From Planctomycetota bacterium (lineage in GTDB: Bacteria; Planctomycetota; UBA11346): 38,370 bases of DNA. The notes beneath the pieces were generated by a model. The model ran no database searches, was not told where the DNA came from, and was given only the letters and a program-made list of their open reading frames with translations. The stretch covers positions 1 to 38,370 of the forward strand of contig JALHRW010000026.1 of NCBI GenBank assembly GCA_022841245.1, read 5' to 3'. Below, one piece after another: positions 2,958 to 26,486 of the stretch. The translations under genes were made by a program, and so were the position numbers. Position 1 is the stretch's first letter. Each line of letters begins with the position of its first letter.

Positions 2958-5741
2958 GTGCTGACCCGTACCGCCCTCGCCCTGGCCCTCCTGCCGCTGC
3001 TGCTTGCCGGCGAGTCGCCCGACCCGCTGCCCTTCCCGGACATGGCGCCGTCGGTCGGCGCAGTCCTGGCGCAGCACTATTACGACCCCGCTCGCTTCCG
3101 CCCGCGGCTGATGGTCGAGCGCGCCCTGCGTCAGCTCGAACGCTCGGAAATCGGCATCGACACGGTGTGGGCCGACGGCCGCATCGTGCTCAACCTGCGT
3201 GGCAAACGCACCACCGTTCCCGCTGCGGAACCGGCTGATCTGGCCTCGGCGATGCGTCTGGTCGAACTGGTGCGGATCGCGGTCGAGGGGGGCTTCGACG
3301 GCAAGGCCGACCGCCTGCGCGAACTGGCCTACAGCCAGGTCAACGGCTCCCTCTCGACCCTCGACCCGCACACCGTGCTGTGGCCGCCCGAGGCCGCCCG
3401 CGAGTGGTCGGAGGACAACATCCAGGGGCAGTTCTACGGCATCGGCGCCTTCCTCAACCAGGAGGAGGGGCTGATCTCGATCCAGCGCGTCATGCCCGGA
3501 CTGCCGGCCGAGCGCGCCGGGGTCGAGGACGGCGATGTCATCCTCGCGGTCGACGGTGAGAAGACCGCCGGCCTGACCCTCGACCAGGCGGTGCGCCGGA
3601 TCAAGGGTCCGAAGGGCACGACCGTCAACCTGACGCTGGAGCGCAAGGCGGCGAAGGCGGCCATCGACCTGCCCATCGTCCGCGACCTGGTCAAGGTCAT
3701 CACCATCCGCCACCACCGCGATGGCCCGGTCGGCTATGTGCGCATGGATGACTTCAACGCCAACACCGCCCACGACCTGTTCGTCGCCCTGCGCGAGATC
3801 GAGCGTGATGGCCCGGTGCAGGCCCTGGTCCTCGACCTGCGCTTCAACGGCGGCGGCCTGCTCGACCAGGCCAAGCTGATCGGTGGCTTCTTCCTCGCCC
3901 GCGGCCAGGAGGTCGTGCGCACCACCACCGTCGACGGCAAGGAGGACGTGACGATCAACCGCGCGCGCCGTTTCGTCACCGCACCGATGGTCGTGCTGAC
4001 CTCGCCCGGCACCGCCAGCGCCGCCGAGATCGTCGCCGGCGCGCTGCAGCTCAACGAACGCGCGGTGATCGCCGGCGAAGCCAGCTTCGGCAAAGGCTCG
4101 GTGCAGAACATCCGCGAACTGCGCGACGGCAGCCGGCTCAAGCTGACCATCCAGGAGTACCTGCTGCCCGGCGGCGCTTCGATCCAGGACGTCGGCGTTG
4201 CGCCCGATCTGGCGCTGGTGCGCCACGGCGTCCGCGAGGACGGCACCGTCGACCTGCGCGACATGTCGACCGAGCGCGAGCGCGACAACGAGTTCGCCCT
4301 CGGCAGCCATAAGAACTACGACCGCCAGCCGGTCGCCGAGCTGGCCTGGCTCGACCCCTGGCTCGACCGCGAGGCGCGTCGCGTCCACACCATTTCGGCC
4401 CGCGAGTTCCGCCCCGACCGTCAGAGCCAGGTGGTGATCGACCTGCTCAAGACCGCCTGCGCCGCCGAGGACTGGGCCGCCGCAGCGGACAAGGCCCTGG
4501 CCGACGAGAAGCTCCGTCCGTTCGTGCTCGAGCGCCTCGCCGCCCCGTTGGCCGCGCGCGCCGAGGTGGAAGCCGCCGCCCTCGCAGCTGCCCTCGGACG
4601 CCTGCCGAAGCCGGTGGTGTGGGGGCCTGGCGGTGCTCCGGCCGCTGGCACGCTGACTCTGACCTGGACCGGGCCGCAGACGGTGACGGCAGGCGAGACC
4701 GTGGCCCTGTCGGTGCAGGTAGCCAACTCCGCCGCTACCGAAGCTGGCAGGCTGTTCGCCATCATCCGCGCCGATCCCCTCTCCCCGTTCTGGGAGGAGG
4801 AGTTCGTCGTCGGCGCCGTGCCTGCCGGCGGTTCGTCCACCGGCCTGCTGCACTTCCACATTCCGCCCCGCCTGCTCGGCGGCGAAGAGCGGTTCACCGT
4901 CGAGCTGCACCAGGACGGCGGCAAGCAGGCCCTCGCCACCTGTCCGGTCTCATTGCGCATCACGCCGCGGCCCTCGCCGCACCTCGGCTTGGCCTGGAAA
5001 GTGGTCGACGACAACGGCGATGGCCGCCTCGCCCCTGAGGAGCATGCCGACCTCGTGATCGAGGTGTTCAACCAGGGCGATGGACCGCTCGAGGCCGGCG
5101 CCGTGTGGGTCGAGAAGGACAACGACCCGTTCGTCTCGCTCGGCGCCAGCCGGCTGAAGATCGATGCGTCGATCGCCCCCGGCGCCTCGCGCAGCCTCAG
5201 CTTTCCCCTCACGGTGCGCAAAGAGGTCAAGCGTGCCGGCCAGCCGGTGCCCCTCAGCGCCGACCGGATCAAGCTCAACGTCGCCGCAGTCGAGGTCCTG
5301 CCTGACGGTGTCGACGCGCGTTTCCGTGCCAGCGTGCGCGCCAGCATCGAGATCCCCATCGGCCAGCCGCTGAAGGCCCGCCGCCTGGTGCTTCCGAGCA
5401 TTGCGGTGGGCGAGCCCCAAGTCGAAGGCGGACGTGCACGACTGTCGTTCAGCATCGCCGATACCGCTGACGACGCGGTGGTCAATCCGCTCGACCTGGT
5501 CGCCCTGTTCCAGGGTGACGACAAGGTCGATCTGCAGGTCGCCAGCGCCCTCGATGGGCCCGTCGATGGCCGCTGGAGCTACACCCCGCGCATCAGCCTG
5601 ACCCCTGGCCTCAACCTGCTGCGCCTGCTGGTGCGCGATAGCGATGGCGTGGTCAACGACCGGGTCGTGCGCCTGTGGGGGCCGGACGCACCGACCGTCG
5701 CCAAGCCTGTTCCGGTGCCGGCTCCGGCGCCACTGCCATGA
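2958..5741 (+). CDS. PDZ-containing S41 C-terminal processing protease with beta-rich tail
   Basis: This 927-aa exported protease resembles Prc/CtpA. An N-terminal signal peptide (MLTRTALALALLPLLLAG) precedes a helical region, a PDZ domain (~165-240; GLPAERAGVEDGDVILAVDG) and the S41 core. The Ser-Lys dyad is visible as S354 in TSPGTASAAEIVAGAL and K379 in ASFGKGSVQ. Family members are usually 400-700 aa. Here residues ~540-927 add beta-sandwich segments resembling CARDB/Ig-like domains, with LTLTWTGPQTVTAGETVAL at the first and an acidic DDNGDGRLAPEE loop (possible calcium site) in the second. These may bind substrate or the cell surface. The start is GTG 2958, chosen because it precedes the signal peptide and follows the SpoIIE stop by 12 bp. 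The final ATGA overlaps the hemB start. Confidence 0.9.
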   Translation: MLTRTALALALLPLLLAGESPDPLPFPDMAPSVGAVLAQHYYDPARFRPRLMVERALRQLERSEIGIDTVWADGRIVLNLRGKRTTVPAAEPADLASAMRLVELVRIAVEGGFDGKADRLRELAYSQVNGSLSTLDPHTVLWPPEAAREWSEDNIQGQFYGIGAFLNQEEGLISIQRVMPGLPAERAGVEDGDVILAVDGEKTAGLTLDQAVRRIKGPKGTTVNLTLERKAAKAAIDLPIVRDLVKVITIRHHRDGPVGYVRMDDFNANTAHDLFVALREIERDGPVQALVLDLRFNGGGLLDQAKLIGGFFLARGQEVVRTTTVDGKEDVTINRARRFVTAPMVVLTSPGTASAAEIVAGALQLNERAVIAGEASFGKGSVQNIRELRDGSRLKLTIQEYLLPGGASIQDVGVAPDLALVRHGVREDGTVDLRDMSTERERDNEFALGSHKNYDRQPVAELAWLDPWLDREARRVHTISAREFRPDRQSQVVIDLLKTACAAEDWAAAADKALADEKLRPFVLERLAAPLAARAEVEAAALAAALGRLPKPVVWGPGGAPAAGTLTLTWTGPQTVTAGETVALSVQVANSAATEAGRLFAIIRADPLSPFWEEEFVVGAVPAGGSSTGLLHFHIPPRLLGGEERFTVELHQDGGKQALATCPVSLRITPRPSPHLGLAWKVVDDNGDGRLAPEEHADLVIEVFNQGDGPLEAGAVWVEKDNDPFVSLGASRLKIDASIAPGASRSLSFPLTVRKEVKRAGQPVPLSADRIKLNVAAVEVLPDGVDARFRASVRASIEIPIGQPLKARRLVLPSIAVGEPQVEGGRARLSFSIADTADDAVVNPLDLVALFQGDDKVDLQVASALDGPVDGRWSYTPRISLTPGLNLLRLLVRDSDGVVNDRVVRLWGPDAPTVAKPVPVPAPAPLP

Positions 5742-6718
5742 TTCCAGTGCGGCCCCGCCGCAACCGCACCAGCGCCGGCATCCGCGCCCTGGTGCGAGAA
5801 ACCTCGCTGACGCCGTCCCACCTCGTGCTGCCGCTGTTCGTCCATGAGTCGACGCAGCCGCAGGCTATTGCTTCGATGCCCGGCTGCTGCCGGCAGGGTA
5901 TCGACGGCATCGTCACGACCGCCCGCGAGGCGCTCGCGCTCGGCATCCCTGCCGTGGCGCTGTTCCCGGCCCTGCCCGACGCCGCCAAGGACCCGACCGC
6001 CAAGGCTTCGACCGATCCCGAGGGACTGCTGCCGCGCACGGTGCGGGCCCTGAAGGCCGCGCTGCCTGCCCTGGTGGTGGTCACCGACGTGGCGATGGAT
6101 CCCTACAGCAGCGACGGCCACGACGGCTTGCTGCGCGACGGCCGTATCGTCAACGACGACACCCTGCCGATCCTCGCCGCCATGGCTGTGGCCCAGGCCC
6201 GTGCCGGGGCTGACGTGGTCGCACCCAGCGACATGATGGACGGCCGGGTGGCGGCGATCCGTTCCGCCCTGGACTCAGCCGGTTTCACCGACGTCGCGAT
6301 CTGCAGCTACTGCGTGAAGTACGCCTCGGCGTTCTACGGGCCGTTCCGTGACGCCCTCGACAGCGCCCCGCGCAGTGGCGACAAGAAGACCTACCAGATG
6401 GATCCGGCCAACGTCCGCGAAGCTGCGCGCGAAGTCGCCCTGGACGAGTCCGAGGGTGCCGACTGGCTGATGGTCAAGCCGGGCCTGCCCTATCTCGATG
6501 TCATCGCGCGGGTACGTGCCCAGACCGCCTTACCGGTCGCTGCGTACCACGTCAGCGGCGAATACGCGATGCTGAAGGCCGCCGCTGCCAACGGCTGGCT
6601 CGATTACGAGCGCTGCTTGCTGGAGAGCCTGCTGTCGCTGCGTCGCGCAGGCGCCGATCTCATCTTCACCTATGGCGCCCTCGATGCGGCCCGTCTCCTC
6701 GCCAAGTCGGGGGGTTGA
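5738..6718 (+). CDS. hemB: delta-aminolevulinic acid dehydratase (porphobilinogen synthase)
   Basis: HemB condenses two 5-aminolevulinate molecules to porphobilinogen in the cytoplasmic tetrapyrrole pathway. The 326-aa length is normal for the family. The active-site lysines are visible: K194 in SYCVKYASAFYGPF and the Schiff-base K247 in MVKPGLPYLD. The metal-site motif reads DVAMDPYSSDGHDG (117-130), with Ala119, Asp121 and Asp129 where zinc enzymes carry three cysteines. It therefore belongs to the zinc-independent, magnesium-type class seen in Pseudomonas. ATG 5738 overlaps the stop of the S41 protease (ATGA), implying translational coupling, an unusual partner for a haem gene. Upstream in-frame codons (from 5675) lie inside the protease gene and are not needed. 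tRNA-Gly follows 37 bp downstream. No other haem gene is in the window. Confidence 0.96.
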   Translation: MIPVRPRRNRTSAGIRALVRETSLTPSHLVLPLFVHESTQPQAIASMPGCCRQGIDGIVTTAREALALGIPAVALFPALPDAAKDPTAKASTDPEGLLPRTVRALKAALPALVVVTDVAMDPYSSDGHDGLLRDGRIVNDDTLPILAAMAVAQARAGADVVAPSDMMDGRVAAIRSALDSAGFTDVAICSYCVKYASAFYGPFRDALDSAPRSGDKKTYQMDPANVREAAREVALDESEGADWLMVKPGLPYLDVIARVRAQTALPVAAYHVSGEYAMLKAAAANGWLDYERCLLESLLSLRRAGADLIFTYGALDAARLLAKSGG

Positions 6719-7616: not shown

Positions 7617-10600
7617 ATGAAAAAGAGAACCCCGATGAAACGCATCCGTCAGAATTCCGCCTGTGGCGAGCCGATATGGGCTCGTGCCTGCGGGGCGGTT
7701 CTGCTCTGTTTGCTGGTTTCTGGTGGCCTGATGGCCGCACAGCCGGCCACCACCGGCAAGTTTGACAAGGAGGTGTACGCTGCCACGGACACCGTTTCCG
7801 TGACGCCTGTGCCGGTAGCCAATGCTGCCCAACTGCTGTGGGTGGATTCATACGGCCGCATCCTGAAGGTCTTTCCGACCGACAAACCGATCACCATCAA
7901 GCTCGACGCCCCGACCAGCCGTTTCAACTTCATCGTCGCGGTGGACAAGGATGGCAAGACGCTCGCCGAATCGCCGTTCCTGGTCACGCCCGATATTCCA
8001 TACTGGGACGACTACGAGGTCTGGCTGTACGGCGGCGCCGACAAACCACGCGATTTTCATTACAACCACTACCGCGCCTGCAACGTATCGGGGTCGATGG
8101 CTTACCCCTTCGGTGGCAAGCCGGAAGGCTTTGCCGTCAACAACTTGCGCTGGTACCGCGAATGGTGCGTGGCCAAATACCAACTCCACTATGGCGACCA
8201 GTTCTCCAAGGGTTTCTGGGCCAAGTTCATGGATGCCCACCGCAGCGGCGATTTCGACTCCGAGAACAAGTACTTCTACCGTCCTCACTGCCTCAGCGAC
8301 CCGAAGTTCATCGAATCCTGCAAGCAGCAGATGCTGAGCGCCGTGTCGCTTGATGCCAAATATCGGCATGGCGCCTACAGCATTTCTGACGAGGCCTCGG
8401 TGACCTCCTTCTGCAGTCCGTTCGACTACTGCTTCCGTCCCGAAACCATGCAGGCCATGCGCCTCTGGCTCAAGGGCAAGTACAAGACGCTCGACGCACT
8501 GAACCAGGAGTGGGCCACGGATTTCAAGGATTGGGACGCCGTGACACCGCTGACCACCAACGAGACCTTCGAACGCAATAACCCGAAGTTCAAGGAGCTG
8601 CTCCGGACCAAGGTCGGCGGCGTGCAGATTCGCGAGCGCAATCTGCTGATGGACGAGCTTGTCGTACCCGGTCATGAGAACCACGCCTCGTGGTCCGACC
8701 ATCGCGAGTTCATGGACACTGCCTACGCCAATATCCTGAACGTATGCACCGAGGCGGTCCGTGAGAAGGATCCGCACTCGCCGGCGGGCATTCTCGGCAC
8801 GCAGATGCCGTCGGCCTTCGGCGGCTTCGATTTCTGGAAATTGGCCCACGCTGTGGACTGGTTCGAAGCCTACGACATGGGCAACTCGTGGGAGCTGCTC
8901 ACCTCCTGGCGGACGCCCCGTACCGTCCTGAGCCAGACCACCTTCATCGGCAAAATCGACAAGCAACGCTATCAGGCCACGAGCTACATGCTCAAGGGCT
9001 GCCGCGGTGGCATCGTCTACGAACCGGCCAACGCCATCCGGAACGGCAAGGTTGTCAGCCCGGTGCTGGCAGCGCTGCGCCTGACCTGGGGCGAACTCCG
9101 CGGCGGCATCGCCAAGCTGCGTTTCCGTTGCTCTGACGTGCCCAATCCGATCGGCGTGTATTACAATCAGGCCAGCCGCCGCGTCTCGTGGCTGTACGAT
9201 GCCGAGACCGATGGCACGACATGGCCGCGCCGTCTCAGCTCGTGGGATGCGGGCCGCTGTTCGATGAACAACGGCATATCCGGCGTCATGCGCGCCATTC
9301 AGGACAACGGCTACCAGTTCAAGGTGGTCGCTGAACAGCAGGCGATCGCCGGTGAGCTGAAGAAGTACAAGGTCCTGTTCCTCGCTCGCATCGAAGCCAT
9401 GTCCGAGGCTGAGGCCAAGGCGATCGGCGCATTCGTGGAAGCCGGCGGTATCCTCGTCACCGATGGCGCCCTCGGCACCTTCGACCCGCAGTGCCGCCGT
9501 CGCGACAAGGGCCTGCTTGACGAGTTGTGCGGCGTCAAGCACGTCGACTTCCGCTACTGCGAACGCGATGGTGGCTACTTCATGTGGAACCACAGTCGCA
9601 TGGAGAAAGGCCCGGCTGCGCAGGTCAACAAGACGTGGACCCTGATCCCCGATGGAGACGCCCTGCTGAAAGACGTGGACCTCTCGCTGCTCTTCGTCTC
9701 CTCGCCAGGGCTGCGCGCCACCACCGGCACGCCGCTGGCCAGGGCTGGTGAAACCTCAGCCTTTGTCGTCAGTCACGTCGGCAAGGGAGTGGTGATCTGC
9801 AGCAACATCTACTGGGCGGATTATATGGAAAAGCGCGGCAACACCAAGCTTGGCGCGCCGATCCTGAACTTCGTCCGCAACGTGCTGACGCAGGCGGAGA
9901 TCAAGCCGAACTTCGAGTTGTATGAACGCTCGGGTACCGAGGCCAAGGCTGCGGGCAAGGTTCCACCGATGATCCAGCGCTACCTCTTCAAGGAAGGCGA
10001 CCTGCAGTACGTCGCATTCAACGCGCAAGGCCGCATCAACCAGCAGTCAGACGGCAGCATCTCCATCTCCGGTATCGAGCCCGGCTCGCTCGTACCGCTG
10101 TCCGTGAAACTGCCGTCGAAGTCGTACGTCTACAATGCCCGCACCGGCGAGGCCTTTGGCGAGACCGACCTCGTGCCGGTGGAGCTCGACACCATGGGCT
10201 ATGTCTGGCTGTCGCTGCTGCCGTACAAAGTCAGCGCCGTCGAGGTGAAGCGCGTGGATGCCGACAAGGATCCGCTGCTCGTAAAATACCAGGCTGCGAT
10301 CAGCGCTTCCGGTACGCCCGGCACGCACGTCCTGCACCTCGAGGTCATCGATCCGGAAGGCAACATCTGCGATTATCTCGCCGGCAACCTCGTCGCCGAG
10401 ATGGGCAAGGTCTCCGGTGCGCTGCGCCTGTCTGAGAACGGCAAGGCCGGCACCTGGACGCTGCGCTTCCGCGACGCCGCCACCGGCGTCACCGGCGATC
10501 TGGCCGTGGTCAAGGCCGAAGGCGCGTTTGCGTCGTCCAGGCCGATCCACAACGCCATCCAGAATGGCGACCTGTACGGCCAGATCCGCGGCCCGACCGG

Positions 10601-14291: not shown

Positions 14292-17216
14292 ATGAAGGAT
14301 GATCGCGACTCGGTCTTGCTGCTGGCGGTCGCTGCCGGAGATGAGACCGCCCTGGCCACCCTGATCGGTCGCTACCACCGTCAGGTGCGGGCGGCATGTG
14401 CCCGGCAATGCCCGCCGGCCGACCTCGACGATTGCGTCCTGGCCGTGTTCCTGGTGCTGCACCGCCGGCCGCAGGCGGCGGCAAGGGCCCCGGTGCTGCT
14501 TGCGTGGCTGCTGCGTGTGGCGCATTTCGTGTCCCTGCGCGCACGCAGAACGGACCAGCGCCGCCGGCGTGCCGAAGGCGGCATCGCGGACAGTCCGGCC
14601 GCCGCGCATGCACCCGATGCCACGGTGCTGGATCACCTCGATGCCGCGTTGCTGGGTCTGAAGGAGCGCCAGCGTGCGGCCATCCTCCTGCACGTCGTCG
14701 AAGGCGAGGCTCCCGCCAGCGTCGCTGGCCGCCTGGGCGTCACTCCGGAGAACGCTGGCAAGCTGATTCAGCGCGGCCTGGAGGCCCTGCGCACCTCGCT
14801 GCGTCGTCGTGGCGTGCCGATCGGCGCCGCGGCACTGGCCGCCTGCCTGGCCCGGTCCGCGAATGCCGTCGAGGCGACGCCGGCGGATCTGGTGACCCTC
14901 ATCACCCGGGCTCCTGGCGCACGCGCCGAGGTGCTCGCAACGAAAGTGATCATGACCATGACCGCCATTGGCGCCATTCCCGCAGCCGCCATCGTCCTGG
15001 TTGGAGTCCTGATCGGCACAGGTGCCCTGGCTATGCATGCGCCGCCCCGTCCCGCCGCCATGGCCGAAGTGCCACCGGTAATCGCGCCGGCCCCCGTTGT
15101 CTTGGTCGACCGGCGGCTCGCCCAGCCCGTCACAGCGATGTTGATCGGTCGGGGCATCCTGCCGGTCGTCCGCCAGTTGAACTGCTTGCTGCAGGAGCGA
15201 TTCGATGTCGTCATGCCGCAGCACCAGTTCACGGTGGAATTCAACACGACTCTCGATGGACCGGTCGTGGTGCCGGATATTGCCGTCGTCCTGCCACCCG
15301 GATCGACGGCGGCAACTGCATTGGACGCCATTGCTGAGCAGGCCGGCTGCACCTGGAGGATGGCGGAGGGCCTGGTCTGCTTCGAGGATCGCGTCCAACT
15401 GCTCGATCCCCTTGACGGCACCTGGGACAGCTTGGATGTGCACCGGGCCCTGACCCAGGGTGATGCCGCGACGGTGGGACGCGGCATCGCCGCTTGGCTG
15501 GATCTGCCGCAGCGCCGGCCGATCACATCACTGCTCATCCATCCCCGGTCCTGGCTGGGGAGGGTGGCTCTGTTGGGCGATGCCCGGCTGGCAGAACGCT
15601 TCCGCCAAGCCTGCCCGGATTTTCCCGGAAAAAGGGGCTACTACGATGATGTCATCCTTGGCGATCCGCATCCGAGCGAGCGCCTTGGCAGACCGGTGGA
15701 TCCGACCGATCTCGCCCGGTTGATCAGGATGGGCATTCGGGATCCCCAGGTGGAGGAGCCTGCCATAGCGGCCGTGGATGCACTGCTCATGTCGCCCGAT
15801 GGTGCGCCCTTGGCTGTCTACGCGACCCATCTGGCAGAGATGCAATCTGCGGGCATTGTCAGTCCAGAGTCATCACCTCGTGGATTCCGGCTAGGGAACA
15901 CGGTACTCGCTGGGAAGGATGGTGGATCGTGGGTGCGCCTTCGTGACGACATAGACGGGCTTCCTGAGGCATTGACGCGGCTGCTGGTGATCCGTGGTGA
16001 CGGGGGTCTGCGTTGCAGATTGCTGGATGAAGGGATTCTGCAGCGATACGGTACCTGGATGGCCGGATCGGGCTGCCATCCGGCATGGAACCATCGGTTG
16101 GCGGAGGCCGTGCGGGCAGGCGAGGAGGACGCCACGCGTCAATTGGCCGAACGGATCCTGGCTTCGTCCGCTGATCCGGAAAACTGGACCAGGCTGCTGG
16201 ATATGTGGTGGAAGAGCCAGGGGGGTGCGTTCAGGCGTCTGACCGGGTTGGTCCTGGGTGCAGGCCAGCGGGGCAGCGAGGCCATCCTGGCCGCGCTGGC
16301 CGAGGGGACCTTGCCGGCCGACGTGCTGACGGCCAGTCTGGAGGCTGATCAGCCGGACATGCCCGTCTCGAAGATCATGTTGTGCACCACGGTGGCGGGG
16401 AATCCCAACTGGCCAGATCGGCTGCGCCAAGCCGCAGTGCGGCGGCTCTGCTCAGACGACAGAGTGCCGCGGCATCCATTGGCCGTAGGGTTGGCGACGT
16501 CTCTGATCGAGGAAGGATCGAAGCGCTCCCGTTCGCTTCTGGTCGGGCTGGGCCTCCAGCTGCGGTTCAGCCAGGGCCTCATCGCGGATGACGATCCTGA
16601 CCTGGCACGTACCCTCCAGTCATCCTCGCCTTACCTGCGCGCCGTTGCCTTGACCATCGAGGACAAGCTCCTGACGCAGGCCCGGAAGCGATCCAAGCTG
16701 CAGGTGCGCAGGGATCTCGTTCGCCGATTCCCTGCAGCGGATCCACTAGCGGCTTCTTGGCCGAAGGCGTATGGTGGTGAAGCGTGGGCGCACTATCTTG
16801 CCCCTGATCCCGGACGGGCTGCAACCATGCTGGCGATGGCCCGGAACGATCCTTCCCCCCAGGTTCGGCTGCGGGCGGCTGCCGTCGGTGTGCGACTGCT
16901 GCCTGAGGAAGCGGCCATGGAAACGCTCCGTTCGCTGGCTCTCCAGGAGGATGACCCCGCGGTATTCAAGGACCTCGATGCCCGGATTCCGACCTGGACG
17001 GAAGAGAAGGAGGGTGCCGTCAGCGCCACGTGGGAGCATTCGAATATCCTCGTCTTTGGCTGCCCGGATTTTCCGGAGTGGCTGGACAACGAGACGGAAA
17101 CGCCAAATGGCACAGAGTGGAAGGGTTTCCCACCAGACTCGAAGGACGTCACCAGGCCGGACGATGCGCCCCGCCCCGAGGAGCGGCCAGTGCGTACCCA
17201 TATCCATGTCCATTGA
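14292..17216 (+). CDS. membrane-anchored ECF sigma factor with large extracytoplasmic region
   Basis: This 974-aa protein begins with an ECF RNA-polymerase sigma factor: sigma-2 at ~10-85 (LIGRYHRQVRAACARQC, DLDDCVLAVFLVLHRR) and sigma-4 at ~115-170 (LGLKERQRAAILLHVVEGEA, ...LGVTPENAGKLIQRGLEALR). One transmembrane helix follows at ~219-248 (MTAIGAIPAAAIVLVGVLIG). The remaining ~725 residues should lie outside the cytoplasm. They start with an STN/secretin-N-like unit near 310-365 (FNTTLDGPVVVPDIAVVLPP ... AEQAGCTWRMAEGLVCFED) and continue as helical, HEAT-like sequence. Similar sigma-TM fusions are typical of Planctomycetota and relatives. ATG 14292 was chosen; an upstream in-frame start at 14256 adds only 12 basic residues. 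No anti-sigma gene is adjacent, so the tail may act as a built-in sensor or anti-sigma module, with release perhaps by proteolysis. That is inference. Confidence 0.85.
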   Translation: MKDDRDSVLLLAVAAGDETALATLIGRYHRQVRAACARQCPPADLDDCVLAVFLVLHRRPQAAARAPVLLAWLLRVAHFVSLRARRTDQRRRRAEGGIADSPAAAHAPDATVLDHLDAALLGLKERQRAAILLHVVEGEAPASVAGRLGVTPENAGKLIQRGLEALRTSLRRRGVPIGAAALAACLARSANAVEATPADLVTLITRAPGARAEVLATKVIMTMTAIGAIPAAAIVLVGVLIGTGALAMHAPPRPAAMAEVPPVIAPAPVVLVDRRLAQPVTAMLIGRGILPVVRQLNCLLQERFDVVMPQHQFTVEFNTTLDGPVVVPDIAVVLPPGSTAATALDAIAEQAGCTWRMAEGLVCFEDRVQLLDPLDGTWDSLDVHRALTQGDAATVGRGIAAWLDLPQRRPITSLLIHPRSWLGRVALLGDARLAERFRQACPDFPGKRGYYDDVILGDPHPSERLGRPVDPTDLARLIRMGIRDPQVEEPAIAAVDALLMSPDGAPLAVYATHLAEMQSAGIVSPESSPRGFRLGNTVLAGKDGGSWVRLRDDIDGLPEALTRLLVIRGDGGLRCRLLDEGILQRYGTWMAGSGCHPAWNHRLAEAVRAGEEDATRQLAERILASSADPENWTRLLDMWWKSQGGAFRRLTGLVLGAGQRGSEAILAALAEGTLPADVLTASLEADQPDMPVSKIMLCTTVAGNPNWPDRLRQAAVRRLCSDDRVPRHPLAVGLATSLIEEGSKRSRSLLVGLGLQLRFSQGLIADDDPDLARTLQSSSPYLRAVALTIEDKLLTQARKRSKLQVRRDLVRRFPAADPLAASWPKAYGGEAWAHYLAPDPGRAATMLAMARNDPSPQVRLRAAAVGVRLLPEEAAMETLRSLALQEDDPAVFKDLDARIPTWTEEKEGAVSATWEHSNILVFGCPDFPEWLDNETETPNGTEWKGFPPDSKDVTRPDDAPRPEERPVRTHIHVH

Positions 17217-17549: not shown

Positions 17550-17750
17550 GCGTGTACGGGGCAGGGTTCGCGGAGCAACCTGCCCAGGGTCCAGTGATCC
17601 GGAGTTAAGGAGTCCTGTCGGCCTGTGTCGTGCCTGCTCAGCATCGTTGAGGAGTCGGCGCCGAGCCCGGACAGGGGTTCAAGTCGGTTCAAGTCCCTCC
17701 AGATCGCCGACCAATGTGATCGGCACGCGATGCCGGAGAGGCTCAGGCCG

Positions 17751-17770
17751 GTGTCCAGTTTTCCGGACAC
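17751..17770. repeat. 6-bp inverted repeat in leader
   Basis: GTGTCC (17751-17756) and GGACAC (17765-17770) flank AGTTTTCC, 61 nt upstream of the chosen start at 17832. It may be an mRNA hairpin or a decayed insertion-sequence end. Confidence 0.3.
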
Positions 17771-17831
17771 TATTATCGCTGGACTCTCCTCTGAGCCCAT
17801 GAACAAGTCGGCCGTCTTTCTCGGAGAAGCC

Positions 17832-20800
17832 ATGCTTGCCATCCGCAAGGTGCACCTGCCCCTGATCCTGCTCGCCGTCGTGCTGGGCGTCACCGCCTGC
17901 GCCCGGGCGGACCATGCCGGCAATGAACGCGCTCCAGCCCTGCCGCCTCCTGTGATGCTGCCGGCGCCGGCAGAAGGCGATCACGTCACGGCAGATGCCA
18001 CGCCCGTACCGTCGACCACAGGCTCCGGTGCGCACCAGGCGCCGTCTCGCACGGTGCTCGATGCCCAGGGACAGACGCTGGTCGCCAAGGACGGCGAACA
18101 TGAGGTGCTCGCCGCCGAGGACGGCCCGGCCGACGCCCAGGGGCGCTTCACCCGCGTGCGCCTGGTGCGCCGCGACGGCCTCAAGTACCCGCTCATCCGC
18201 CAGATCGAGCAGATGCAGCGCGACCCGAGAGGCGAGGCCAGTCGCATCGTACTGCATGAGGCGGTGGCCGACCATCTGCAGGTGACGGTGCACGACCCCA
18301 CCACCCGTGCCCTGCTGGGCAACGCCCTGCCGGCAGGCTGCTCCGTGCGGCGCGTCATTCCTGGAGCCCCGGTCGTGCTGGTGCAGATCCCCGCCACCAC
18401 CCACGACGACTATCCCGCCGCCCTCGCCAGCCTCGCTGCCCTGCCCGGCGTGTCCCATGCCGGTCCCGACTGGCTGGTGCAGGCCACCATCACCCCGAAC
18501 GACCCCTCCTTCGCACAGCAATGGGCCCTCGACAACCAGGGACAGGACGGTGGCACCGCCGACGCCGACATCGACGCCCCCGAGGCCTGGGCCTACCACA
18601 CCGGCAGCCGCTCGGTGAAGGTCGGCGTCATCGACTCCGGCATCGATCTGCAGCATCCGGACCTGACCGAGAACCTGTGGACCAACCCCGGCGAGATCGC
18701 CGGCAACGGCCTCGATGATGACGCCAACGGCTACGTCGACGACGTGCATGGCTGGAACTTCGTCAGCGATAACGCCAACCCGGACGATGACCATTTCCAC
18801 GGTACGCATGTGGCGGGAACCATCGGCGCCAGCACGGGCAACGGCCTCGGCGTAGCCGGCGTGTGCTGGCAGGTGACCCTGGTCCCGCTCAAGTTCCTCG
18901 ACGCGAGCGGCAACGGCTATACCTCCGATGCGGTCGCCGCCGTCTATTACGCCAACACCATCGGTTGTGACCTGACGAACAACTCGTGGGGCGGCGGTGG
19001 CTTCGACCAGACGCTGAAGGACGCGATCGATGCTGCCGGGGCGCAGGGCCGGCTGTTCATCGCCGCGGCCGGCAACGATGGCGTCGACATCGGCAGCTAC
19101 CCGCACTACCCGTCCTCATATGCGTGCAGCAACCTGGTCGCCGTCGCCGCCACCGACCGCAAGGACACGCTGGCTGCATTCTCCAACTTCAACAGCAGCG
19201 GCGTGCACATCGCTGCGCCCGGCGTCTCCATCCTCAGCACCTTCCCGATGCAGCAGACCTGGGCCATGGCCGACAAGGGCCTGAGCGCGGCCTACGGCAG
19301 CATTTCCGGCACCTCGATGGCCACACCGCACGTCGCCGGCGCGATCGCCCTGCTCAAGGCGGCCGAACCGGGCCTGGATGCCGCCGCGTTGCGCAGCCGT
19401 CTGCTCCTGCGCTGCGACGCCCTGCCCATGTTGGTCGGGAAGGTGGCGGGTGGACGTCGCCTGAACGTGATGAAGCTGCTCGATCCGGCCTGGACGACGC
19501 CGCCCGCCGCGGTGGCCCTGGCCGGCACGGCGATGATCGAGCAGCAGGGCAACCAGGACGGCTTCCCCGGACCTGGCGAGACGATCCGGCTGACGCCGAG
19601 CTTCATGAATGTGGGCGGCGTGGACTCGGGCCAGTGCACCATCACGGCCCTGACGGCGAGCGCCGGAGTGACGGTGCTGGCGCCGACGTCCGGCTCCATC
19701 GTCAACCTGCCGCCGCTGGTGGCCGTCACCGGACCGTCGTTCTCCATCCAGCTCGACGCCAGCCTGGCCGACGAGCAGACGATCGCGGTCGATTTCGCGG
19801 TATCCGGACCGGCCGGCGGCCTGGGCACCTTCCGCTGGAGCGGTCTGGTGTCCGCGCCGCCGCCGCGTGCCGAGGCCACGGTCACCGTCGCCATCGGGGA
19901 GATGGTGGCGGATCCGGTCCGCAACCTGGTCTATGTCATCGACGCGACCACGCCCGCCATCATGGCGATCAACACCCAGACCGGACGGCTCGCGGCCCGC
20001 GCACCGCTGTCAGGTGCGCCGAACATCGATCCGCCCGTGCCTTCCAGCATGGTCGCCACCGGCCTTCCGACAGTCAGCACGGATGGCAGCCTCCTCTACG
20101 TCTGCCTGACCCGCGCTCGGAAAATCCAGTGCTTCGCGCTCCCGGGCCTCCAGGCCGTGCGGACGATCACCTGCGATGGGTGGGAACCCTTCAGCGCGGC
20201 GACCGGACCCGACGGCAGCCTCTATGTGACCAGCCACGACTATTGGGGCCCCATCCGCAAGCTGGACCCGGTCAGCGGAGCCATCCTCCGGTCCTTCGGC
20301 TACGGCCCGGCCTATCCGGAAGACCGTTTCTACATGCTGCCACTGCTGCGGACCAACGCGGACCACACCAGGCTCTATGTCGCGGAAACCGGGCTGTGGG
20401 TGACTGGTGGGCCGGGCTACATGCGCGAGCTCGACATATCCGGATCCACGCCGGCCTTCGTCAAGAGCCATCCCTTCCAGATGGTGTACCTGAGCGACTA
20501 CATGGTGGACCAGGCCAGCGGGACGCTCCTGACGACCCATGGGGGCATCTACGGCGTCCAGCTGACGAACATGGCCACCGGCGCCTATGGCACGGTATGG
20601 CCGTTCGGCACCCCTTACGGCAGTGCCGTGCAGATGGTGCCCGGTGATGGTTCCGTGTATGGCGCCTCGGCCGGACCGTACGACGCGACGATCTACCGAT
20701 TCAACCTGGCCACGGGCGCGAAGACCGCCAGCTACCCATTGAGCAAGGGTCTGGCCGGCAGCCTCTCGGCGCGCGGATTCGTCATCGCTCCCGATCGCCG

Positions 20801-23800
20801 CATCATCTATTACCTGCGTGGCGGCCAGAATGGCAACAAACTCGGCATCATCGGCTGCCCCAGCCTGACGCTGGACAACTACCCGCGAGCAGTCGCTACC
20901 GTGACACCGCTCAGCGGGCCGCCCGGACTGACCGTGACAGGCAATGCCACCGCCTCCTACGATCCGGACGCCGGCGGCGGCATCCTGGCCTACCGCTGGA
21001 ACTTCGGCGACGGTGCCTCCGCAACCACCGCCATCGCCTCGCACACCTACCCGACGCGCGGTTCCTACACCGTCACGCTGGAGGTCACCGACGTCGAGGG
21101 TCTCGTCGGCAACGCGTCCTATACCGTCGTGGTGAACGGCGCGCCTGTCCCGCAGGCGCAGAGCGTCACGACGCTGGAGGACACGGCCAAACCCATCGTG
21201 CTGACGGCCAGTGATCCCGAAGGCGACACGGTCACCTACAGCATCGCCAGCTACCCCGGCAAGGGGTCGTTGGGCGGCACGGCGCCGAACCTGACCTACA
21301 CGCCGTCCGCCAACCAGAACGGCAGCGACAGCTTCACCTTCCGCGCCAGCGACGGTCTGAGCAGCGCCACTGCGACGGTCTCCATCACCATCACCCCGGT
21401 CAACGACCCGCCGGTGGCGGGCGACCGCTCAGTCCTTGCCCGGCTCAATACACCTGTCGCGGTCAGCATCGTGGCGACCGACCCGGACTCGACGACCCTG
21501 TCCTATCTGGTGGTGCAGGCACCGGCATCCGGCGTCCTCAGCGGCATCGCCCCAAACCTGACCTACACGCCGAATCCAGGCTTCGCCGGGATCGACACGC
21601 TGCGCTTCACCGCCAGCGACGGCACGCTCACCAGTGCGACGGCGACGGTGACCATCCGGGTGAACCAGCCGCCGGTGGCGCAGCCAGCCAGCATCCCGGT
21701 GGTCTATGAGACCCCGAAGGCGTTCGTTCTCGGCGGCAGCGATGCCGATGGCCAGGCGCTGACCTACCGGGTGACCACCAGCCCGACGCGTGGGACGATC
21801 AGCGGCACGCCGCCCAGCCTGACCTACACGCCCAAGCCTGGCGAGACCGGCACCGACACCCTCGCGTTCGTCGCCAACGACGGCTACCACGACAGCGCCC
21901 CGGCTACCGTCACCTTCACGATCTCGGCCACGAATCCCTGGGCCGAAGCCGACCTGGCCCAGGCGCCGACCCCGGGGAGCACCGGCTTCGTACCGCTTGG
22001 CACCGTCTTCACCGTTCGCGGATCCGGCGACCTCGCCCCGGCCAGTGATGGTGGACGGTTCACCTGGACCACCCTGCCGGCCGACGGTACTCTGGCCGCG
22101 CGCATCACCGCCATCACGGGTGGACGCGGCGGGCTCATGCTGCGCGCCGCCAGCACCGCCGATGCCGCCAGCGCCGCCCTCCTGCTCGATGGGGGGCAGC
22201 TGCTGCTGGTGGTCCGCGCGGGTGACGGCATCGCAGCGGTGACAACCCCGCTGGGCGCTCAAGCGGCACCGTGTTGGCTGCGCCTGCAGCGGACGCCAAC
22301 CGGCATCGACGCTGCCCGTTCCAGTGACGGCAAGACCTGGGTCCAGGTCGGATCAGCCGCCGTGCAGCTGCCCGCTACCGCCATGGCCGGTCTGTGGGCA
22401 GGCAGCGCGACGACCAGCCTCGCCCAACTCACCGCCGACCAGGTGCGTACCCACCACTCCGTCGACCGGACCTGGCAGACGTTCGGCGCCTCGCCAGCCC
22501 GGACCGGTGTGGCCTCCGGCAGCTTCGCCGGCGCGCCCTTCACGCAGGTGTGGCAGGCCGCGCCCGGCGGCGACCTCCAGCCGGTCGCGGTCGGCAACGG
22601 CTTGGTCTTCGCGACCAAGTCGATCTACATGACCACCGGCTGGATCAAGGCGTTCGATCTGGCAACCGGCGTCGAGCGGTGGCAGGTCACGACTCCCAGC
22701 GCATACTCGCTGAATCCAGCCGCCTTCGCGGATGGCCGCGTGTTCGTGCAGCGCGGCAACCACGGCAGCGATTCGCAACTCTGGTGCATCTCGGCCGCCA
22801 CCGGGTCAACGTTGTGGAAGTCGCCCTTCAGCGCGCAGTGGGAACGCTACATGGCGGGATGTCCCGCTGGCGGGATGATCTGCGTCAACGGCGGTTACTA
22901 CGGCGGCATGTACGGCTTCGATCAGGTCGATGGCGCCCAGCGCTTCTTCAACGGAACCCTGGAGCAGATCGACCAGTGGGCGCCGGCCTTCGCCTCCGGG
23001 CAGCTCTTCACGTGGATCGGCGGCAAGGCTCGCGGCCACGATCCCCTCAGTGGCGTCACCGGTTGGACGCTCGACCTGTTGAATGGCGACGGCAGGGGCA
23101 CGCTGCCGGTGATCGGCGGCACATCGCTCGTCCTGCGCGGCTCCAACGCGCTGCATGTGGTCGACACTGCCTCCCGCACGAAGCGCTGGACCGTGAACGC
23201 CACGGTCGCCGGCACGCCGGCGGTGACTTTGGACGCGGTCTACGCCCTGGTCGGCCCGCAGCTCAATGCCTATGCCCTGAGCAGCGGCAGCCTGCTGCGC
23301 AGCTACACCGCCAGCGGTACGCTCATCGGTCAGCCGCTGGTCACGGACGACTCGATCATCATCGCCAGCGCCAACACCACCTGGGTGCTCGACCGGGCCT
23401 CCTTCGCGGTGCGTCAGACCCTGACCTACGGCGGGCACCTCGCCCTCGCCGGCCGCACCCTGGTCCTGGCCGATGCCAGCGGATCGATCCGCGCCTTCAC
23501 TTCTCCGGAAGCGAACGCCGCCCCGGTCGCCAACGCCCAATCCGTGGCAGCCGTCGAGGACACCGCCAGCGCCATAACCCTCTCCGGCAGCGACCCCGCG
23601 GGCCAGGCGCTGACCTACCAGATCGCGACGCCGCCGGCGCATGGCGCGCTCAGCGGGACGCCGCCAACGCTCACCTACCTGCCGCAGGCCGATTTCGCCG
23701 GCAGCGACACGTTCACGTTCACCGTGCATGACGGTCAGGTGGGCAGCGCCCCGGCCACGGTGTCGATCACTGTCACGGGGGTCAATGATCGTCCGTCCAT

Positions 23801-26486
23801 CCTCGCCGGATCCGACCAGACGGCCGATGGCGATGGCCAAGCCGTCGCTGTCCCCGTCTGGATCGCTGCGTTCATCCCGGGTCCAGCCGACGAAGCGGGC
23901 CAGATCGCCAGCTACACGGTCACGACCGACCGCACCGATCTCTTCGACGTCCAGCCGGCGGTCGCTGCGGACGGCGGACTGACCTTCACCCCGAGCATGG
24001 GCGCGGAGGGTACGGCCACCATCACCATCACCTGCCAGGATGATGGGGGCACCGCGCTGGGCGGCATCGATACTTCGCTGCCAGTGACGGCGCGGATCGA
24101 TATCCTCGCACGCTGGGATGCCGACCTCGAGGTCACGCCGATCACTGCCGTCGCCCTGGTGGCGAGCGATACCCAGGCCACCGAGGCCGGCGATCCGGGT
24201 CGCCTGACCCTGACCCGCAGCGGCCCGACCACGGCCGATCTGCAGGTCGACCTGTCCTGGGGCAGCACCAGCACGGCCATCAACGGCACCGACATCGCCT
24301 ACATCCCCGCCAGCGTGACCATCCCCGCCGGTCAGACCGCATGCGACATCGTGATCATGCCGCTGCAGGATCTCATCTCCGAAGGCAATGAGACCGTGAC
24401 GCTGGCAGTCTCGTCCAGCGCCGCCTACCATCAGCTGTCGGGCACGGTGCAGACCGCAACCGTCACCCTGGTCGATGACGACCCGGTGACCGTCAATGTC
24501 AGCGCCAGCGACGCCACGATGGCCGAACCAGGCAACCATGGTGCCTTCACCATCACGCGGACGGGACCTCCGGTGCAGGCCCTGACCGTGGCACTGGCGA
24601 CTTCCGGTACGGCCACGTCCGGTGCCGACTACGCGCCTCTGCCCACCTCGGTCACCATCCCGGCCGGCGCCGTATCGGTCATCATCCCGGTGACCACCAG
24701 CAACGATGCTGATTCCGAGGAGCGCGAGACGGTGATCCTCGCCGTCCAGCCTGGTGCTGGTTACATTCCCGGCGGTGTGCCGAAGGCCACCGCAACGATC
24801 AACGACGATGAACCGGAGGCGGTCGGCATCGAGGTGATCTCCGGACTCGCCGCTGAGCCCGGCATCGCCGCTACCCTCCGCGTGTATCGTCGCGGGCTAT
24901 CGACGGCGGCGCGCACCCTGACCTACACCGTCAGCGGCACGGCCACGTCTGGCACCGACTACACGGCCCTGTCCGGCACCGTGACCCTGGCGGCCAACGC
25001 CAGTTCGGCGAACCTGACCATCACCCCGGCGAACGACAGCCTGGTCGAGGATGCCGAGACGGTCGTGATCACCCTCGTTGCACCAAGCGGCGCCGGCGTC
25101 ATCGCCGACAGCGCCAGCCTGACCATTCTCGACAACGATGGGACGGTTCGTCCGGTGGTGTCGCTCAAGGCGGGTATCGCCAAGGGGGGCGAACCGGCCA
25201 CCGATGCCTCCTTCATCATCAGCCGCACCGGAGCGATCACGACATCCCTGCGCGTGCTGCTCCAGCCCGTCACCGGTGGGGCCATCGCCGACGCCGACTT
25301 CGCGCCCCTGCCCCTGGCCGTGGACATTCCGGCCGGGTCCGCATCCGTCACCCTGCCGGTGGATGTGACCGATGACGTGGTCTCTGAGCCGTCCGAGAAT
25401 CTCACCCTCGCCCTGGCGGCCAGCGCGGACTACAGCGTCTCCACCACCCGTTCCGCCACCGTGACGATCACCGATGACGACGCCCAGGTGGTCAGCATCT
25501 CGGCATCCGACTCCACCGCCGCTGAACCGGGCACGGATACGGGCAGGTGGACCGTGTCCCGCACCGGCAGCCTCAGCCAGCCGCTCACCGTCTTGCTCGC
25601 CAGCCACGGCACCGCCACCGCCGGCAGCGATTACACCAGCCTGCCCGATCAGGTCATCTTGCCGGCAGGGAGCTCGTCGGTGTCGGTCACCCTCACGCCT
25701 CTGACGGATGTCGACGCGGAGGCGGGCGAACAGGTCATCCTCGAGATCCGTCCCGACCCGGCCTACGGCATCTTCAACACGGGTTCCGCCACGGTGACGA
25801 TCAAGGATGACGAGACGCCGCTCATCGACCTGATGGCCATCGACTCGGCTGCCACCGAGGGCGGTGATACCGGGAAGTACCGCATCATCCGCCGCGGCAA
25901 CACGTCGGCGGCGCTGACCATCCCGCTGGCCTGGAGCGGCACCGCGCAGAACGGCGTCGATGTCAACACGCTGCCGTCATCCGCCACCCTGGCTGCCAAT
26001 GCCGTCTCGCTCGACCTCACCGTGACGGTCAAGCAGGACAGCGCCATCGAGGCCGTGGAGACCGTGATCGGCACACTGCAGCCCGGCACCGGCTTCACCG
26101 TCGGCCAGTCCCAGGCCGCCGTCCGCATCACCGACGACGAGGTGGGTGGCGCGGTAGCGATCCGCATGATTGACGCCAGCGGCTACGAATTCGACGCCGT
26201 GCCGGCCGCCATCGAGGTCTTCCGCACCGGCCGACTGACGACGGCCATCACCGTGCCATACACCCTGGCGGGAACCGCGACCGTCCGCGAGCACACCATG
26301 CCCCGGCAGGTCGTCCTGCCCATCGGCGTCGACCGCATCCGCATGGTGGTCACGCCGCTGCGCGACCAGCGCGTCGAGAGCGACGAGACGATCATCCTCC
26401 GTCTGCTCGGCGGCACCGGATACACGCTGGGAACCGGTTCGGAAGGCACCTTCACCATCATCGAGACGCCGCCCGGATCGGGCTGA
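17832..26486 (+). CDS. giant subtilisin-like (S8) lipoprotein with cadherin-like, propeller and Calx-beta domains
   Basis: This 2884-aa surface lipoprotein has a lipobox, VLGVTAC (Cys ~20), preceded by a hydrophobic core. GGAG lies 5 nt upstream of ATG 17832. A prodomain (~35-255) precedes the S8 protease (~260-540). The catalytic triad is D268 (VGVIDSGID), H323 (FHGTHVAG) and S495 (GTSMATPH), with the NNSWGGG oxyanion region intact, so it is probably active. Then follow a YVTN-like propeller (~687-1016), a PKD domain (~1020-1103, YRWNFGDGASAT), three cadherin-like repeats (~1104-1366) and a concanavalin/DUF1349-like domain (~1367-1543). A PQQ-type propeller (~1546-1891), a fourth cadherin-like repeat (~1896-1987) and seven Calx-beta repeats (~2107-2884) complete it. 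No C-terminal anchor is seen. It may be a calcium-stabilised adhesin-protease or nutrient-scavenging enzyme. It follows the membrane sigma factor on the same strand, but a regulatory link is unproven. Confidence 0.85.
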   Translation: MLAIRKVHLPLILLAVVLGVTACARADHAGNERAPALPPPVMLPAPAEGDHVTADATPVPSTTGSGAHQAPSRTVLDAQGQTLVAKDGEHEVLAAEDGPADAQGRFTRVRLVRRDGLKYPLIRQIEQMQRDPRGEASRIVLHEAVADHLQVTVHDPTTRALLGNALPAGCSVRRVIPGAPVVLVQIPATTHDDYPAALASLAALPGVSHAGPDWLVQATITPNDPSFAQQWALDNQGQDGGTADADIDAPEAWAYHTGSRSVKVGVIDSGIDLQHPDLTENLWTNPGEIAGNGLDDDANGYVDDVHGWNFVSDNANPDDDHFHGTHVAGTIGASTGNGLGVAGVCWQVTLVPLKFLDASGNGYTSDAVAAVYYANTIGCDLTNNSWGGGGFDQTLKDAIDAAGAQGRLFIAAAGNDGVDIGSYPHYPSSYACSNLVAVAATDRKDTLAAFSNFNSSGVHIAAPGVSILSTFPMQQTWAMADKGLSAAYGSISGTSMATPHVAGAIALLKAAEPGLDAAALRSRLLLRCDALPMLVGKVAGGRRLNVMKLLDPAWTTPPAAVALAGTAMIEQQGNQDGFPGPGETIRLTPSFMNVGGVDSGQCTITALTASAGVTVLAPTSGSIVNLPPLVAVTGPSFSIQLDASLADEQTIAVDFAVSGPAGGLGTFRWSGLVSAPPPRAEATVTVAIGEMVADPVRNLVYVIDATTPAIMAINTQTGRLAARAPLSGAPNIDPPVPSSMVATGLPTVSTDGSLLYVCLTRARKIQCFALPGLQAVRTITCDGWEPFSAATGPDGSLYVTSHDYWGPIRKLDPVSGAILRSFGYGPAYPEDRFYMLPLLRTNADHTRLYVAETGLWVTGGPGYMRELDISGSTPAFVKSHPFQMVYLSDYMVDQASGTLLTTHGGIYGVQLTNMATGAYGTVWPFGTPYGSAVQMVPGDGSVYGASAGPYDATIYRFNLATGAKTASYPLSKGLAGSLSARGFVIAPDRRIIYYLRGGQNGNKLGIIGCPSLTLDNYPRAVATVTPLSGPPGLTVTGNATASYDPDAGGGILAYRWNFGDGASATTAIASHTYPTRGSYTVTLEVTDVEGLVGNASYTVVVNGAPVPQAQSVTTLEDTAKPIVLTASDPEGDTVTYSIASYPGKGSLGGTAPNLTYTPSANQNGSDSFTFRASDGLSSATATVSITITPVNDPPVAGDRSVLARLNTPVAVSIVATDPDSTTLSYLVVQAPASGVLSGIAPNLTYTPNPGFAGIDTLRFTASDGTLTSATATVTIRVNQPPVAQPASIPVVYETPKAFVLGGSDADGQALTYRVTTSPTRGTISGTPPSLTYTPKPGETGTDTLAFVANDGYHDSAPATVTFTISATNPWAEADLAQAPTPGSTGFVPLGTVFTVRGSGDLAPASDGGRFTWTTLPADGTLAARITAITGGRGGLMLRAASTADAASAALLLDGGQLLLVVRAGDGIAAVTTPLGAQAAPCWLRLQRTPTGIDAARSSDGKTWVQVGSAAVQLPATAMAGLWAGSATTSLAQLTADQVRTHHSVDRTWQTFGASPARTGVASGSFAGAPFTQVWQAAPGGDLQPVAVGNGLVFATKSIYMTTGWIKAFDLATGVERWQVTTPSAYSLNPAAFADGRVFVQRGNHGSDSQLWCISAATGSTLWKSPFSAQWERYMAGCPAGGMICVNGGYYGGMYGFDQVDGAQRFFNGTLEQIDQWAPAFASGQLFTWIGGKARGHDPLSGVTGWTLDLLNGDGRGTLPVIGGTSLVLRGSNALHVVDTASRTKRWTVNATVAGTPAVTLDAVYALVGPQLNAYALSSGSLLRSYTASGTLIGQPLVTDDSIIIASANTTWVLDRASFAVRQTLTYGGHLALAGRTLVLADASGSIRAFTSPEANAAPVANAQSVAAVEDTASAITLSGSDPAGQALTYQIATPPAHGALSGTPPTLTYLPQADFAGSDTFTFTVHDGQVGSAPATVSITVTGVNDRPSILAGSDQTADGDGQAVAVPVWIAAFIPGPADEAGQIASYTVTTDRTDLFDVQPAVAADGGLTFTPSMGAEGTATITITCQDDGGTALGGIDTSLPVTARIDILARWDADLEVTPITAVALVASDTQATEAGDPGRLTLTRSGPTTADLQVDLSWGSTSTAINGTDIAYIPASVTIPAGQTACDIVIMPLQDLISEGNETVTLAVSSSAAYHQLSGTVQTATVTLVDDDPVTVNVSASDATMAEPGNHGAFTITRTGPPVQALTVALATSGTATSGADYAPLPTSVTIPAGAVSVIIPVTTSNDADSEERETVILAVQPGAGYIPGGVPKATATINDDEPEAVGIEVISGLAAEPGIAATLRVYRRGLSTAARTLTYTVSGTATSGTDYTALSGTVTLAANASSANLTITPANDSLVEDAETVVITLVAPSGAGVIADSASLTILDNDGTVRPVVSLKAGIAKGGEPATDASFIISRTGAITTSLRVLLQPVTGGAIADADFAPLPLAVDIPAGSASVTLPVDVTDDVVSEPSENLTLALAASADYSVSTTRSATVTITDDDAQVVSISASDSTAAEPGTDTGRWTVSRTGSLSQPLTVLLASHGTATAGSDYTSLPDQVILPAGSSSVSVTLTPLTDVDAEAGEQVILEIRPDPAYGIFNTGSATVTIKDDETPLIDLMAIDSAATEGGDTGKYRIIRRGNTSAALTIPLAWSGTAQNGVDVNTLPSSATLAANAVSLDLTVTVKQDSAIEAVETVIGTLQPGTGFTVGQSQAAVRITDDEVGGAVAIRMIDASGYEFDAVPAAIEVFRTGRLTTAITVPYTLAGTATVREHTMPRQVVLPIGVDRIRMVVTPLRDQRVESDETIILRLLGGTGYTLGTGSEGTFTIIETPPGSG
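24150..26483 (+). repeat. seven tandem Calx-beta repeats (coding)
   Basis: Units start near 24150, 24492, 24822, 25155, 25488, 25821 and 26151, a period of 110-114 codons. Shared marks are EPG/EGG near the start, TATSGxDY-like centres, the (V/L)xIPAG strand and a DDD/DDE end that seeds the next unit. The DNA copies are diverged, so this is old duplication. Confidence 0.85.

Follow-up and report, generated by a model that had tools for sequence, protein, structure and literature searches.

The forward-strand gene at 14292–17216 of the window, by which we mean the whole 38,370-nt stretch of DNA that was analyzed, encodes a protein of 974 residues that we call P0001. Its open reading frame is intact from an ATG at 14292 to a stop codon at 17214–17216, and a paralogue on contig C167 of the same genome matches P0001 at 34% over residues 3–719 and at 33% over 710–931. 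The gene lies between one for a BNR/CBM9 protein upstream and one for a very large surface protein downstream. The features to which we refer are as follows.

2958–5741, + strand: Prc-family protease (S41 and PDZ), candidate site-1 protease (TIGR00225, Pfam Peptidase_S41 and PDZ)
14292–17216, + strand: P0001, whole gene, membrane-anchored ECF sigma factor, 974 aa (open reading frame and full-length paralogue)
14361–14564, + strand: sigma region 2, aa 24–91 (Pfam Sigma70_r2, E=1.1e-3)
14637–14789, + strand: sigma region 4 helix-turn-helix, aa 116–166 (Pfam Sigma70_r4_2, E=2.4e-8)
14805–14945, + strand: conserved juxtamembrane linker, aa 172–218 (column conservation in 88 TM-bearing members)
14946–15029, + strand: transmembrane helix, aa about 219–246 (hydropathy, model helix, conserved position)
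15030–15131, + strand: Pro/Ala-rich linker, aa 247–280 (modeled as disordered, pLDDT mostly <50; Pro-rich family-wide)
15132–15389, + strand: tentative STN-like alpha/beta module, aa 281–366 (model topology, weak hhalign match)
15429–16061, + strand: helical region modeled with low confidence, aa 380–590 (AlphaFold model)
16080–16991, + strand: HEAT-like alpha-solenoid, aa 597–900 (model and Foldseek; Pfam HEAT_2 sub-threshold)
16992–17213, + strand: C-terminal extension, aa 901–974 (modeled as mostly disordered)
17625–26486, + strand: subtilase/Calx-beta/cadherin surface protein, 2953 aa, downstream of P0001 (domain matches)

P0001 is an ECF sigma factor (group 4 sigma-70), as judged by Pfam and by its fold. 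The Sigma70_r4_2 match exceeds the Pfam gathering score and the Sigma70_r2 match falls under it, reaching E=1.5e-4 if the core is searched alone; other sigma regions are absent from the Pfam matches, and the TIGR02937 score of 35.4 is less than the cut-off of 42.9. The AlphaFold model of the sigma part, in which residues 1–90 have a pLDDT mostly of 76–93, matches solved ECF sigma factors in Foldseek, including 9m9e and 1or7, bearing out the sigma2/sigma4 core that the original prediction had read from the DNA. Sigma region 2 keeps the residues that are invariant in the family alignment (D6, R27, F53, L56, W72, and L73), and residue 50 is a leucine in a column occupied by glutamine in 12 of the 13 aligned relatives.

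The core leads into a juxtamembrane linker of ∼45 residues, which reads RRGVPIGAAALAACLA in P0001 and for which the 88 TM-bearing family members give the pattern RRGV..(S/A)..AL..LL..A.AA ... LA.G....M, followed by the TM and then a Pro-rich stretch. The single TM helix predicted at 219–248 was confirmed by hydropathy, by the fold model, and by family conservation: P0001 has a sole strongly hydrophobic segment, with Kyte-Doolittle window means >2 across residues 219–250 and a top 19-residue mean of 2.42 at 223–241, and the region is modeled as a single helix spanning 210–246. Because this segment aligns with a hydrophobic segment that follows sigma4 in 88 of 100 distinct core-matching ORFs from the fetched loci, its presence is beyond chance, although that sample, picked with a profile whose columns also cover the linker and TM, is biased to close relatives, and its share is not a phylum frequency.

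The tail had been described as an STN-like and then HEAT-like helical region belonging to no named type. Residues 281–366 are modeled with the elements E281–284, H289–303, E305–307, E331–333, H340–351, E353–358, and E361–366, giving a beta-alpha-beta/beta-alpha-beta-beta topology, but at a pLDDT of only about 28–69. Alignment of the module with the STN repeats of relatives by hhalign is weak (E=0.0024, probability 12%), and Pfam finds neither FecR_C nor STN in the P0001 tail. We call the module STN-like, and only tentatively, because its topology is consistent with that fold but model confidence is low to moderate and the hhalign probability is low; the assignment is firm in the closest relatives and suggestive in P0001 itself. 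The HEAT-like assignment holds as a fold over residues 597–900, which form tandem helix pairs (pLDDT mostly 70–88, with a dip at about 800–835) that match alphaRep and karyopherin folds in Foldseek (E 0.008–0.05), but not as a Pfam family, the HEAT_2 match (E=0.0037) being below the cut-off; no sequence relatives of the helical tail were found in the PDB. A tail of the P0001 type is common to P0001 and the C167 paralogue only, and a tail-only search of 392 genomes of the phylum gave, outside the P0001 genome, just short HEAT-region matches. By these searches the combination of STN-like and HEAT-like parts is private to the two paralogues, in keeping with the earlier failure to name it.

The nearest sigma relatives of P0001 are more explicit about what may follow the membrane helix. 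Right after the TM they carry FecR_C (E=5.1e-5, below the Pfam cut-off), STN (E=4e-5), or GspD_N0 (E=6.8e-8). One relative, on contig C7 of the same genome, is modeled with two beta-alpha-beta/beta-alpha-beta-beta repeats, and part of this model matches the FecR-like anti-sigma structures 4m0h/4m0n from Parabacteroides with an rmsd of 1.4 Å over about 70 residues (Foldseek, E about 0.009). The genome gave no STN match at E≤0.001, and a FecA-type STN-bearing transducer was thus undetected. That result makes a partner of the FecA kind unlikely for P0001, and the solenoid probably engages some other envelope component. Seven TonB-receptor Plug domains are encoded in the genome (contigs C10, C129, C139, C280, C7, C302, and C113), none of them on the contig of P0001, and given the lack of STN matches these receptors do not seem to be transducers of the FecA type.

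P0001 is not a one-off. Its own genome, a 5.73-Mb Planctomycetota MAG (88% complete, 5.6% contamination), encodes ten further intact proteins composed of a sigma core, linker, hydrophobic segment, and tail, the tails being mostly unrelated. These came from a search of that genome; in a wider collection of genome contigs, a search with P0001 alone returned no relatives, and an alignment of the core was required. P0001 scores 319.6 bits against the 13-row core profile, of which it is itself one row, and also matches paralogues independently of that profile. It has the core, the conserved linker, the TM at a fixed distance, and the variable tail that make up the shared chassis. Nearly all of the core's named relatives come from Planctomycetota, and the core profile has a match at E≤0.001 in 390 of 392 genomes of the phylum, a figure that includes ordinary ECFs and is not a count of fused proteins. 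P0001 and at least ten paralogues thus belong to a family that extends across the phylum and whose tails are swappable.

Those tails are diverse. Clustering by sequence (E≤1e-4) sorts the 85 tails of 80 residues or more into 48 groups, and Pfam finds among them CarboxypepD_reg (11 members), PD40 (10), Big_1 (9), WD40 (6), HEAT_2 (3), and others; beta-helix and 3-keto-disaccharide hydrolase domains also occur in the family. Many of the tails hold domains typical of exported proteins. A second genus of the same taxonomic family also has this chassis with a HEAT tail, at locus L031, where the HEAT_2 match is strong (E=9.6e-40). The 88 TM-bearing members show a slight positive-inside bias, with a mean of 1.95 Lys plus Arg before the TM and 1.38 after it (p=0.003). 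A cytoplasmic sigma domain with a tail outside the membrane is supported because of this slight bias together with the exported-type domains in many tails.

Two paralogues of P0001 have tails that resemble the products of nearby genes. On contig C162 (L024:5857–7806 and 7905–10514), the beta-helix/DUF1565 tail shares 48.5% identity across 340 residues with the N-terminal part of the protein encoded next to it, a Big_9/cadherin/PKD protein whose N-terminus looks exported. On contig C5 (L019:3374–4444 and 4182–6329), the tail has a weaker match to the upstream ORF (27%, about 360 residues, E=2e-12), a second possible case. Both resemblances, at the level of sequence, fit the recruitment of tails from nearby exported proteins. 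The same origin was considered for the P0001 tail and rejected, as no match of the C162 kind is present in the window.

Several systems of known or proposed function have a comparable layout. IutY from Pseudomonas putida (ECF243) likewise joins an ECF sigma factor, a single TM, and a regulatory region in one chain, although the periplasmic location of the P0001 tail is a prediction, and IutY needs no separate anti-sigma factor (PMC5411451). Experiments have shown that Prc trims the periplasmic part of IutY, after which RseP liberates its sigma domain (PMC5411451; PMC9249621). IutY is a protein of 374 residues with a FecR-like periplasmic domain and the partner receptor IutA (PMC5411451), whereas P0001 has a 725-residue tail with a tentative STN module and a solenoid, comes from a different phylum, and has no TonB-receptor match on its contig. 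Membership of P0001 in ECF243 was rejected, since Pfam matches no FecR-like domain in its tail and no TonB-dependent transducer is encoded nearby. As far as anatomy can say, P0001 would nevertheless work like IutY. PupR, a regulator of the FecR type, has an STN domain at its C-terminal end, and the combination of a single TM with a periplasmic STN-type fold recalls the FecR_C/STN domains of the nearest sigma relatives of P0001 (PMC7186176); FecR and PupR, however, are stand-alone anti-sigma proteins, each with an anti-sigma domain at its N-terminus, whereas P0001 carries the sigma factor itself and its STN module is weakly supported. Actinobacterial ECF48/52/53 proteins such as SCO4117 also have a C-terminal TM fusion and an outside extension, with proteolytic activation proposed, and differ in the zinc-finger anti-sigma domain described before their TM, none of which was matched in P0001 by Pfam (PMC8999054). 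A review places fused sigma/TM proteins among the ECFs activated by proteolysis (PMC8999054). The WD40-type ECFs of planctomycetes (ECF57) share with P0001 the phylum, the sigma core, and long swappable C-terminal tails (PMC8999054, PMC8567305); their tails are WD40 and that of P0001 is STN-like and HEAT-like, although WD40 tails also occur on the P0001 chassis. TM-fused and C-terminally extended ECFs are thus already known, and P0001 is a variation on that principle.

By analogy with IutY, we propose that P0001 is a one-piece sigma/anti-sigma protein that is tethered to the membrane until successive proteolytic cuts release it, and we assign this reading a probability of roughly 0.6, its orientation, inhibition, cleavage, signal, and regulon all being parts that we infer. 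The N-terminal ECF sigma domain would reside in the cytoplasm, where the tether formed by the conserved juxtamembrane linker and single TM helix would keep it from acting or from reaching most promoters. The C-terminal 725 residues would lie outside the cytoplasmic membrane, with the small STN-like module next to the membrane and the HEAT-like solenoid beyond it binding a partner in the envelope. A change in that partner would expose the tail to a site-1 protease, either Prc or one of another type, after which an RseP-type site-2 protease would cut the TM helix and the freed sigma domain would direct RNA polymerase. The genome encodes an RseP homologue (TIGR00054, 192 bits against a cut-off of 147.55, with two matches in one frame combined) and has two S41 matches, one of which is the Prc-family protease on the contig of P0001. 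The latter is a product of 927 residues that scores 265 bits against TIGR00225 (cut-off 218.6); its gene lies 8.5 kb from P0001, and it is a candidate for the protease that would act on P0001. The best family match of this protease, over 745 residues, is to the MXAN_5808-type TIGR03900, below cut-off. The supposition that a sigma factor, an anchor in the membrane, and a domain probably located outside are combined in one polypeptide is supported, as is the absence of an adjacent anti-sigma gene, the domains of both flanking genes having been checked. Of the mechanisms considered, the direct sensing of the envelope with release by proteolysis that the original prediction suggested has the best support. 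Against the proposed mechanism stand the weakness of the STN module, the wide distribution of the Prc and RseP families, the small size of the positive-inside bias, and Leu50.

Cleavage is a step that the architecture does not demand. The sigma domain might instead stay tethered and work at the membrane, with a ligand altering the conformation or clustering of the tail in the manner of ToxR or CadC, and a linker of ∼45 residues could let it reach membrane-near promoters. We consider this rather unlikely, given that IutY, a protein of the same domain order, is released by Prc and RseP (PMC5411451) and that the P0001 genome encodes an RseP homologue. The topology is open to a different objection. 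Repeats of the WD40 and HEAT kinds are often found in the cytoplasm, this very chassis carries WD40 tails in some members, and ECF57 has been discussed as a protein-interaction type (PMC8999054), so that the whole tail could be cytoplasmic, with the helix buried or peripheral, and could act through protein-protein contacts as proposed for the WD40-tailed ECF57. The strong hydrophobicity and conservation of the helix, the exported-type domains in related tails, and the resemblance of one tail to a protein that looks exported all argue against a cytoplasmic tail, and we give it a low probability.

Control of P0001 by a separate anti-sigma factor or kinase encoded elsewhere, the tail merely localizing the protein, is lower still in our estimate: besides the lack of an anti-sigma gene next to P0001, a crude listing of ORFs shows no evident one adjoining the ten paralogues. 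Least probable, and by a long way from the proteolytic reading, is that the sigma domain is decaying and that P0001 serves chiefly as a membrane-bound solenoid in some other role. The sub-threshold Sigma70_r2 score and the replacement of a nearly invariant glutamine by Leu50 point in that direction, whereas sigma4 is over its cut-off, the sigma fold is well modeled, and the remaining family-invariant residues are kept.

In bacteria, a receptor of this type usually consists of two proteins, a sigma factor and an anti-sigma factor in the membrane. Where a phylum joins the two in one chain, in many paralogues, and swaps the outside half, it supplies natural chimeras with which to study the control of a tethered sigma factor by an outside signal, and the main interest lies in this phylum-wide family with swappable sensors more than in P0001 alone. 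A one-chain family would also help to explain how large sigma networks could operate in Planctomycetota with no anti-sigma genes alongside. From the FecR/STN domains that the closest relatives carry, an evolutionary route from two-gene cell-surface signaling to one-protein receptors is suggested. We speculate, at clearly less than even odds, that Planctomycetota have made of the ECF sigma factor a class of one-protein transmembrane receptor in which one chassis bears dozens of unrelated sensors, some copied from an exported neighbor, and in which P0001 would combine a HEAT-like sensor with a degenerate FecR/STN coupler.

An AAC-N15-18-CGT motif was present upstream of 1 of 10 genes (P0001 and nine paralogues), with 1.2 expected from shuffles and hence not above chance, and this sequence comparison gives no support to autoregulation of P0001 and its paralogues through a shared ECF promoter motif. 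The gene at 17625–26486, directly 3′ of the sigma gene, encodes a subtilase that also contains PKD and Big_9/cadherin domains and no fewer than five Calx-beta domains, and its adjacency makes it a possible member of the P0001 regulon. Farther upstream, a GAF and SpoIIE-type phosphatase protein (1305–2942) adjoins an HDOD protein (242–1213), which suggests that the two form a separate signaling cluster.
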